Below are positions 47,017 through 61,333 of a stretch of DNA of 64,000 nt, one piece after another. The notes under the pieces were generated by a model that was not told the origin of the DNA, did not search any database, and was given only the letters and a program-made list of their open reading frames with translations. This stretch comes from Paraglaciecola sp. T6c (GTDB lineage: Bacteria; Pseudomonadota; Gammaproteobacteria; Enterobacterales; Alteromonadaceae). The translations under genes and the position numbers were made by a program. The DNA lies in assembly GCF_000014225.1 (NCBI RefSeq), contig NC_008228.1, positions 868,001 to 932,000 of the forward strand, in the 5' to 3' direction. Position 1 is the first letter of the stretch. Every line of letters starts with the position of its first letter.

Positions 47017-47213
47017 ACACTAGTTAACCCGGTTTATGACGCTTATTTAGTATTAATCGTTTAGATAATGAGCGTCTTAACCGCCTAATCAAACTAAACA
47101 CTTGCGCAGGCCAAAGGTTTTCCCTAACATACGCGCCTGCTGAAAAGCTTGTTAGACATTACTAGTAAGACGCAATGCGCTGTTATTGCAGGTTGGCAAG
47201 CACAGACTGAAAA

Positions 47214-47627
47214 GTTTTGGAGAGGTGGGTGAAGCCGGCCTCTTTAGGTGCGTAGCACCGCCCGGCTGAACGGCCGGACATGGATGTACGGACTGGGTGC
47301 CGATCATCATGGACGTGTTAACTTCGATAATTTTTCGAAGAGTAAATTATAGTTTTGGAGAGGTGGGTGAAGCCGGCCTCTTTAGGTGCGTAGCACCGCC
47401 CGGCTGAACGGCCGGACATGGATGTTCGGACTGGGTGCTGATCATCATGGACGTGTTAACTTCGATAATTTTTCGAAGAGCAAATAAAAGTTTTGGAGAG
47501 GTGGGTGAAGCCGGCCTCTTTAGGTGCGAAGCACCGCCCGGCTGAACGGCCGGACATGGATGTACGGACTGGGTGCCGATCATCATGGACGTGTTAACTT
47601 CGATAATTTTTCGAAGAGTAAATTAGA
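47214..47627 (+). repeat. Three 138-bp tandem repeats carrying the 5' end of tRNA-Ser
   Basis: Units start at 47214, 47352 and 47490, exactly 138 bp apart, and the next phase position (47628) is the tRNA leader itself. Each unit opens GTTTTGGAGAGGTGG, which contains the first ten bases of the adjacent tRNA-Ser, then diverges from the tRNA. Each contains a hairpin GGTGC-GTA-GCACC inside AGCCGG/CCGGCT arms, and a second hairpin CTTCGA/TCGAAG near its end. Differences between units are few: GTA to GAA in the hairpin loop of unit 3, two changes in unit 2, and the last 7 bases. Probably transcribed with the tRNA. Confidence 0.92.
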
Positions 47628-47632
47628 GTTTT

Positions 47633-47722
47633 GGAGAGGTGGCTGAGTGGCTGAAGGCGCACGCCTGGAAAGTGTGTTTAGGGTTAAACCTAACGAGGGT
47701 TCGAATCCCTCTCTCTCCGCCA
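47633..47722 (+). tRNA. tRNA-Ser (GGA anticodon)
   Basis: Ninety-base class II tRNA with encoded CCA. Acceptor GGAGAGG pairs with TCTCTCC, discriminator G. The anticodon stem-loop contains CTGGAAA (anticodon GGA), there is a long variable arm as expected for serine, and the T-arm is GAGGGTTCGAATCCCTC. Preceded in phase by three 138-bp repeats and followed by a terminator. Confidence 0.96.
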
Positions 47723-47727
47723 AATAA

Positions 47728-47763
47728 TAAAAAAGCCCCTACGTTTTTCGTAGGGGCTTTTTT
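47728..47763 (+). terminator. Terminator after tRNA-Ser
   Basis: Stem AAAAAGCCCCTACG / CGTAGGGGCTTTTT with loop TTTTT. Typical tRNA operon terminator. Confidence 0.92.
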
Positions 47764-47920
47764 ATTGTCTCGAATTTACGAGGATTTGATGTTGCCCTTT
47801 CAAGTTTGACGTTTTTGTGGGCAAAAAACGCACTGCTTTCGCTACCCAAAGGCGAGCCTGTGAGTGAGCCTGAGGACATCCCTTAATGTCACTAACTTTT
47901 CCATCGTGCTTATTTAGTTG

Positions 47921-61028: not shown

Positions 61029-61065
61029 CGATGGGCGCAACAGCGACACGACTGCGCGCGTAAGC

Positions 61066-61125
61066 CATGCGCCCGTATCTTATGCGGCCGTAACTTATGC
61101 GCCCGTAACCTATGCGGCCATCAGG
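61066..61125. repeat. Four 15-bp tandem repeats
   Basis: Units at 61066, 61081, 61096 and 61111 with consensus TATGCGSCCGTAACY; units 1 and 4 are less exact. Located 37 bases after the halogenase stop. Confidence 0.75.
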
Positions 61126-61276
61126 TAAAAGACATAATTCTGATATTTCTCGTCGCAACGACTGTACTTTCCCTGATGTAGCTTGATTAGGATGTAACCA
61201 ACAATATGTTGCAGGTTTATTTGTGACGCTTTAAGTCATTCTGTTGTTCACGTTTCACGATATTTATTTCTTTAAA

Positions 61277-61333
61277 AGAATAACGGTATTTCAGAAGAAT
61301 AACGGTACTTCACAAGAAAGACGGCACCTCAGA
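61277..61333. repeat. Three 19-bp direct repeats upstream of the GH2 gene
   Basis: Units 61277-61295, 61296-61314 and 61315-61333, consensus AGAATAACGGTAYTTCASA; the third unit has several changes. They end 36 bases before the GH2 start codon, where the promoter and leader must lie. The remainder of 61029-61369 shows nothing else. Confidence 0.75.

Follow-up and report, generated by a model that had tools for sequence, protein, structure and literature searches.

Stable-RNA operons of Escherichia coli contain short repeats that copy an end of the RNA beside them. In the excerpts of PMC8144298 on which we draw, strain K-12 has 22 of these tRNA-linked repeats (TLRs), which copy 18-19 bp from the 3′ end of the tRNA or rRNA lying immediately upstream. 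The rRNA operons contain three of them (RrA, RrB and RrF), which are made as sRNAs from the rRNA transcript; RrB binds CsrA in vitro via GGA motifs; the 19 TLRs located in tRNA operons scored <0.01 as CsrA regulators. By the same account, TLRs have been known since 1978, but no function had been assigned to them until that paper, published in 2021, linked the three in rRNA operons, and no others, to CsrA. CsrA/RsmA recognises A(N)GGA, or a GGA within a hairpin loop, according to the excerpted parts of PMC5864184 and PMC8144298. The former also describes, in Alteromonas macleodii, three similar CsrB-like sRNAs (Aln1a-c) with many A(N)GGA motifs, encoded in a 404-nt intergenic region and having three transcription starts of their own (PMC5864184).

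The array analysed here lies in a 64,000-nt stretch of the genome of Paraglaciecola sp. T6c (NC_008228.1, positions 868,001 to 932,000 of the forward strand; hereafter the window), in front of the gene for tRNA-Ser(GGA), the single tRNA that ARAGORN found within the window. The original prediction, made from the sequence alone, described three 138-bp units in phase with the tRNA leader and carrying the first ten tRNA bases. Inspection of the sequence and the TRF analysis both confirmed this: GTTTTGGAGAGGTGG starts at positions 47214, 47352 and 47490, and again at 47628 before the real gene, giving three spacings of exactly 138. The restated part comprises 5 nt of the leader plus the first 10 tRNA bases in every unit. 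TRF delimited the array to 47211-47646 (period 138, 3.2 copies, 95% matches, score 816), the remaining five rows of the window having scores of 57 to 79. Short tandem repeats of 15 and 19 bp were reported by TRF at 61053-61116 and 61276-61324. The features of the locus are collected in Table 1.

Table 1. Features of the array before tRNA-Ser(GGA) (window positions) and of the element clusters at the rRNA operons of the same genome (contig positions)
Feature	Position	Strand	Basis
Unit 1 (138 bp)	47214-47351	+	sequence, TRF
Unit 2 (138 bp)	47352-47489	+	sequence, TRF
Unit 3 (138 bp)	47490-47627	+	sequence, TRF
Restated leader and tRNA 5′ end	47214-47228, 47352-47366, 47490-47504; original 47628-47642	+	sequence
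Structured module, unit 1 (stems P1, P2, P3, two A(N)GGA sites)	47225-47323	+	model R1, 113.1 bits
Structured module, unit 2	47363-47461	+	model R1, 113.6 bits
Structured module, unit 3	47501-47599	+	model R1, 113.1 bits
A(N)GGA site 1, P3 loop	47280-47284, 47418-47422, 47556-47560	+	sequence, fold, column conservation
A(N)GGA site 2, 29 nt after site 1	47309-47313, 47447-47451, 47585-47589	+	sequence, fold
tRNA-Ser(GGA)	47633-47722	+	ARAGORN, Rfam
Predicted tRNA-Ser promoter (TTGCGC, 17 bp, TAACAT)	47102-47130	+	sequence; like box in relatives
Putative GC-rich discriminator ACGCGCC, of the stable-RNA promoter kind	47131-47137	+	sequence, leader comparison
Symmetrical terminator hairpin 3′ of the tRNA	47730-47764	+	sequence; 12-bp stem in fold
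Five rRNA-operon element clusters	G000:C1 41540-41967, 464516-465075, 1207748-1207860, 1614911-1615472, 4832470-4832987	opposite to operon	

Folding gave z = -3.4 for a single unit and -6.9 for the whole stretch including the tRNA and the terminator. In the predicted fold of a unit, the restated GGAGAGG pairs with a CCTCTTT of the same unit, and is thus part of that fold. The loop of unit 3 had been noted to change from GTA to GAA while its GGTGC/GCACC stem stays intact, which was read as a sign of conserved structure. The change is real, and in 29 distinct relatives 97.2% of the cells of this stem are paired, with both-side changes at three of its five pairs; the pairing is kept across relatives, so the structural reading of the loop change was right. 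The segment following the restated end had further been called structured and unrelated. Structured it is, but not unrelated, since it proved to be a conserved module dispersed in this and other genomes.

A DNA search with unit 1 found matches in 21 of 60 genomes, its own included. A covariance model (R1) was built from 30 copies; at E<=0.001 it finds 30 copies in the T6c genome, the array among them, and it finds copies in all 22 Paraglaciecola genomes searched (1 to 46 per genome). In an even sample of the family with strict filters, R1 matched 37 of 147 genomes and 18 of 49 genera. The original prediction had proposed searching Alteromonadales with such a model; in an even sample of the order, again with strict filters, it matched eight of 197 genomes, two of which lie outside the family. 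In the building alignment 96.7% of the cells are paired and both-side changes occur at 13 of 21 pairs. The covariation score (0.486) was reached by none of 500 shuffles, slid controls scoring 0.03-0.08; the signal sits in the three main stems, the fourth stem hardly varying and therefore saying little. A wobble-pair strand test over P1 to P3 and a short outer helix was weak (35 G-U vs 20 A-C). The copies in the genome and the genus, and their covariation, support the small-RNA family suggested in the original prediction, as a family of structured RNAs; the CsrA-type A(N)GGA sites, which suggest a specific function for it, did not figure in that prediction. Rfam scans of the window, at the gathering threshold and at E<=10, returned the tRNA and sub-threshold look-alikes over the tRNA and the terminator only, and cmscan of 16 element loci returned tRNA, rRNA and sub-threshold matches only. 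At six loci (L041, L048, L172, L176, L196 and L202) the copies, compared by eye, lie in similar stretches of ∼300 bp with further A(N)GGA motifs, which are perhaps whole sRNA genes. Regulation of neighbouring genes in cis was considered and set aside, the downstream ORF being on the same strand in 10 of the 36 copies checked (crude ORF calling).

Two features expected of an RNA that titrates CsrA, conserved A(N)GGA motifs in hairpin loops and a CsrA protein encoded in the genome, were both found. Site 1 lies in the loop of P3, which reads CA-N-GGA-N-G, and site 2 may or may not be in a loop; across 93 distinct copies (81 to 91 letters per column) the columns of site 1 are A in 96%, N free, G in 98%, G in 98% and A in 100%. 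The genome has one csrA gene, whose product keeps L4 and R44, which we take to be important residues of CsrA. Among the 30 copies of the T6c genome, which were found without any GGA pattern, site 1 is kept in 29 and both sites in 27; in the 93-copy alignment the conservation of site 2, unlike that of site 1, is partly circular, because loci were picked by a pattern containing site 2. A site or a part of the module has been lost in unit 2 of G002 and in the units of G006 and G012. In single-sequence folds of the window's units, the probability that GGA is unpaired is ∼0.3 at site 1 and ∼0.4-0.7 at site 2, so that its predicted accessibility there is moderate. In relatives the means are 0.84 at site 1 (n=76) and 0.56 at site 2 (n=80), vs 0.39 elsewhere.

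The array lies between a predicted promoter of the stable-RNA type and the tRNA, and should therefore be transcribed as the leader of the tRNA precursor. The discriminator ACGCGCC of this promoter is of a kind that we take to be linked to stringent control. A like promoter box is found upstream of tRNA-Ser(GGA) in Paraglaciecola genomes both with and without units. By regular expression, 83 of 119 tRNA-Ser(GGA) leaders, among the matches listed, contain a -35/-10 pattern, and its spacer is 17 bp in all 83, 16 to 18 being permitted. The pattern fits 26 of the 28 unit-bearing leaders (one duplicate locus counted), and in all 26 the -10 box is upstream of the first unit. The two outside the pattern are L117 and L310; L310 has a promoter-like TTGACT-17-TAGTAT between unit and tRNA, so its unit may be outside the tRNA transcript. 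A promoter scan inside the T6c array gave one weak internal match, with 0.8 expected. The hairpin assigned as terminator (Table 1) is not among the matches of the pattern scan.

We consider it probable, with some room for doubt, that the array consists of three CsrA-titrating RNA modules in the 5′ leader of the tRNA-Ser(GGA) precursor. The transcription, processing, CsrA binding and physiological effect that we infer for it would proceed as follows. RNA polymerase would start at the tRNA promoter, near position 47138, and transcribe the three modules and then the tRNA. Processing would release the tRNA and leave a leader RNA holding six A(N)GGA sites, room for about three CsrA dimers, and this RNA would compete with mRNAs for CsrA. 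As for the restated tRNA 5′ end, it would be the junction left by a tandem tRNA-Ser duplicate whose 3′ part gave way to a GGA-hairpin module. It would now act as a homology tract by which units can be gained, lost and kept matched to the tRNA, the tRNA gene itself remaining unharmed.

Restated ends were then compared over 119 loci, namely 20 Paraglaciecola and 87 of 88 family tRNA-Ser(GGA) loci taken by their tRNA alone, plus 12 fetched for the element (L236, L239-L241, L070, L072, L082, L104, L111, L116, L117 and L119). L309 was dropped since it has no tRNA-Ser(GGA) call; L104 and L116 are duplicates, leaving 117 distinct loci. A restated end was scored when at least 13 of the first 16 tRNA bases matched within the 600 nt upstream. 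Among the matches listed, 27 of the 117 distinct loci have one, spanning at least 15 genera (one of them, that of L245, by a pseudo-tRNA only); shuffles predict ∼0.1 such loci for all 119. The 12 element-fetched loci were left out of both figures based on the tRNA alone: 16 of 105 loci in list order, among the matches listed, and 18 of 107 when the out-of-order L334 and L335 are added (L334 is G032, a known element holder). The family loci L245-L333, from the matches listed, lean towards genomes with a query-like tRNA-Ser. The restated 16 nt follow the tRNA of the respective lineage, agreeing at all 16 positions in 20 of the 28 loci, among the matches listed: the copy reads GGAGAGATGGCTGAGTGG in Alteromonas and GGTGACGTGTCCGAGTGG in Thalassotalea, and in G032 a copy GGTGAGATGGCTGAGTGG precedes tRNA-Ser(TGA). 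Leader bases are restated as well, beyond the tRNA bases. In several loci the restated end has decayed, to GCAGAGG, ACAGAGG or TCAGAG.

At least two module designs follow the restated ends: one is the R1 type, the other has AGGA loops. A strict hairpin count over the 119 leaders (stem of at least 5 pairs) gave 66 GGA loops vs 17.9 in shuffles; it was also high for GAA (63) and AAG (62), and the cross-table was modest (at least two GGA hairpins in seven of 28 restated loci vs five of 91 others), for which reason a looser per-unit test was used (stem of at least 4, loop of 4-8). By this test a GGA hairpin loop is present in 35 of 41 restated units, among the matches listed, while the TCC control gave 5 of 41 and 50 shuffles, which keep base composition only, gave a mean of 13.4 and a maximum of 21. 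In the list-order, tRNA-only set the hairpin is present in 20 of 21 units, among the matches listed, and in 23 of 24 with L334 and L335 added. Five of the six restated units without it are the second unit type of L239-L241. This second restated unit, in tRNA-Ser leaders of Thalassotalea (L240) and of genus g45, closes with TCACC, possibly a mini acceptor stem.

The T6c genome has 62 tRNA genes, ten of them in rRNA spacers; among the other 52, restated 5′ ends at the same threshold were found at Ser(GGA), Arg(CCG) and Val(TAC). The element is also present at tRNA-Arg(CCG), and none was seen at tRNA-Val(TAC). The tRNA-Val(TAC) cluster (G000:C1:3538109-3539455, L352) has partial tRNA-Val 5′ copies between its genes and, after the last gene, repeats that close with the 3′ end of tRNA-Val, a layout very similar to that of the E. 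coli TLRs. Contigs C4 and C6 of G173 contain several near-identical partial tRNA-Ser 3′ copies (query 17-90, 19-90 and 28-90).

Five genomes, each assembled into one or two contigs (G000, which is T6c, G001, G004, G006 and G012), were used to place the family copies; together they contain 60 element clusters. Twenty-five clusters lie <=500 bp from a tRNA or rRNA gene and 35 have no such neighbour, so that the link is frequent and not universal. The original prediction had named, as evidence that would count against it, homologous units having neither a tRNA link nor conserved structure; here the outcome is mixed, since the 35 clusters lack the link, yet structure is conserved. In the T6c genome, nine of 17 clusters are by stable-RNA genes. 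A cluster lies 108-116 bp after the 5S gene at each of the five rRNA operons, which were deduced from five Ile/Ala-type spacer tRNA pairs; it comprises one to three elements per operon, on the opposite strand and pointing at the 5S gene. DNA near stable-RNA genes makes up ∼1.3% of the genome, and P for the enrichment is ∼2e-7 even after a generous intergenic correction, a value for which the limits of the rRNA operons were approximated and 12% of the genome was assumed to be non-coding. Nineteen of the 25 linked clusters are on the strand opposite to the stable RNA, and 18 of these read towards its 3′ end; G004:5044451, one of the 19, overlaps a tRNA gene, which makes its direction uninformative. 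The other six, on the same strand, are located before tRNA-Ser or tRNA-Arg or after tRNA-Phe.

Such a distribution could also arise if the module were a REP-like or mobile DNA repeat, small and non-autonomous, which spreads through intergenic DNA and came to lie by the tRNA by chance, its hairpins serving mobility and not RNA regulation. Many dispersed copies, flanks that look alike by eye at several of them, and polymorphic copy number and presence would all fit, and the preference for stable-RNA 3′ ends could reflect target choice. We nevertheless regard this as unlikely: what is conserved in the loop is A(N)GGA with a free N, the tRNA 5′ end and the GGA hairpins recur in other genera in units of a different build, and these hairpins are far above the TCC strand control.

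The loci of the genus bear on how the array arose. The original prediction had suggested comparing copy number across related genomes, and over the 20 Paraglaciecola tRNA-Ser(GGA) loci it varies from three to none. Three units are present in T6c and G002, two in G003, at least one in G007 (at a contig end) and one in each of G006, G012, G016 and G021; G018 has a degenerate one, and the remaining 11 loci gave no unit or module match. An empty tRNA-Ser site (G015) and a filled one (G012) have near-identical leaders: G015 reads ...caacaattt followed directly by GGAGAGG, vs ...caacaatttGCAGAGGCGGGTGAAG...agttttGGAGAGG in G012. L245 holds a decaying tRNA-Ser copy (a pseudo-tRNA), and in L310 a tRNA-Ser copy is kept up to the T loop and is then followed by GGA hairpins; these two loci look like intermediates. 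We infer that on more than one occasion a GGA-hairpin module replaced the 3′ part of a tandem tRNA duplicate. Recombination within the tract of leader and tRNA 5′ end that the copies share would since then change the number of units and keep the copy matched to the tRNA. The restated end is thus most likely, in the main, what tandem duplication of the tRNA and recombination left behind. The original prediction had offered, among other explanations, that the array records repeated recombination where the tRNA begins; the empty site, the variation in copy number and loci L245 and L310 support this as the origin of the restated 5′ end.

The same history would leave room for the units to be neutral debris of tandem tRNA duplication, with folds and GGA loops inherited from one ancestral module and put to no use. 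The decay at several loci, the pseudo-tRNA of L245 and the 11 of 20 congeners devoid of a unit speak for this, but the compensatory changes at 13 of 21 pairs (mostly in dispersed copies) and the presence of restated ends in at least 15 genera, among the matches listed, with at least two module types, make it quite improbable. Least credible of all is that the restated ends are themselves functional, as RNase P/E decoys, as processing sites or as a source of tRNA-like 5′ fragments: their match to each lineage's own tRNA, the restated leader bases and the predicted pairing of GGAGAGG within the window's units would suit such a role, but a 3′ acceptor end like that of a tRNA is missing from these units, the first two bases are gone from some units that stand alone or first (which argues against a strict need for an exact tRNA 5′ end), and matching to the tRNA is expected anyway from recombination between repeats. 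The decoy or processing signal of the original prediction therefore finds little support in an end that decays, is paired within the unit and comes without an acceptor end. A part in RNase E cleavage is conceivable, given that the E. coli authors, in the excerpts of PMC8144298, tie the restated 3′ end to processing.

Taking the array as CsrA-titrating modules in a tRNA leader, a wider proposal can be made, tentatively and at slightly less than even confidence: across the family, stable-RNA operons, above all that of tRNA-Ser(GGA), would repeatedly have captured CsrA-binding modules via tandem tRNA duplication, coupling the synthesis of tRNA precursors to the titration of a global regulator, and the units would be the 5′ equivalent of the E. 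coli TLRs, with a function proposed for them. In bacteria only distantly related to E. coli, tRNA-linked repeats of the reverse polarity and of different sequence carry CsrA-type hairpins time after time. If the units bind CsrA, growth-coupled transcription of stable RNA would act directly on the Csr system, and cells making tRNA would at the same time adjust a master regulator. The restated ends would show how a sponge can join or leave a tRNA leader without damage to the tRNA, and the purpose of tRNA-linked repeats would become testable in culturable marine bacteria.

A literature search, made mostly outside subscription journals, returned no report of a tRNA-leader CsrA sponge or of 5′ tRNA-linked repeats. 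Like CsrB/CsrC and RsmX/Y/Z, the array would put more than one GGA hairpin into a single RNA, from which titration of CsrA is expected; unlike CsrB and the Rsm RNAs, each the product of one dedicated gene, the modules occur dispersed or as repeats in front of a tRNA. In Rfam scans of the window and of 19 further element loci in the genome, no CsrB/Rsm family reached its gathering score. The TwoAYGGAY RNA (RF01731), listed in the source table, as excerpted, as a probable RNA that is probably not cis-regulatory (PMC2864571), looks related, its name denoting two AYGGAY motifs as in the two-site module, and in a control scan with E. coli csrB it shared Rfam clan CL00106 with CsrB. RF01731 has four matches elsewhere in the T6c genome, three above the cut-off, and occurs at E<=0.001 in 19 of 60 relatives, but it does not match the array at the gathering score or at E<=10. 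Its highest number of matches among the 60 genomes searched was ten, in G010. The Aln1a-c RNAs of the related genus Alteromonas, compared by description only from the excerpts of PMC5864184, likewise are several A(N)GGA-bearing RNAs.

There is a close likeness to the TLRs as described in the excerpts of PMC8144298, in that both are short repeats in stable-RNA operons restating an end of the neighbouring stable RNA. TLRs lie inside the stable-RNA transcript; the array, with a predicted promoter upstream and the tRNA and a terminator downstream, may do so, L310 being a counter-example among the relatives. TLRs, however, restate the 3′ end and lie downstream, whereas the Paraglaciecola units restate the 5′ end and lie upstream of the tRNA, so they fall outside the TLR definition and are likened to TLRs by design without being filed among them. 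Further, the TLRs tied to CsrA are those of rRNA operons, whereas the GGA-bearing units described here are linked to a tRNA.
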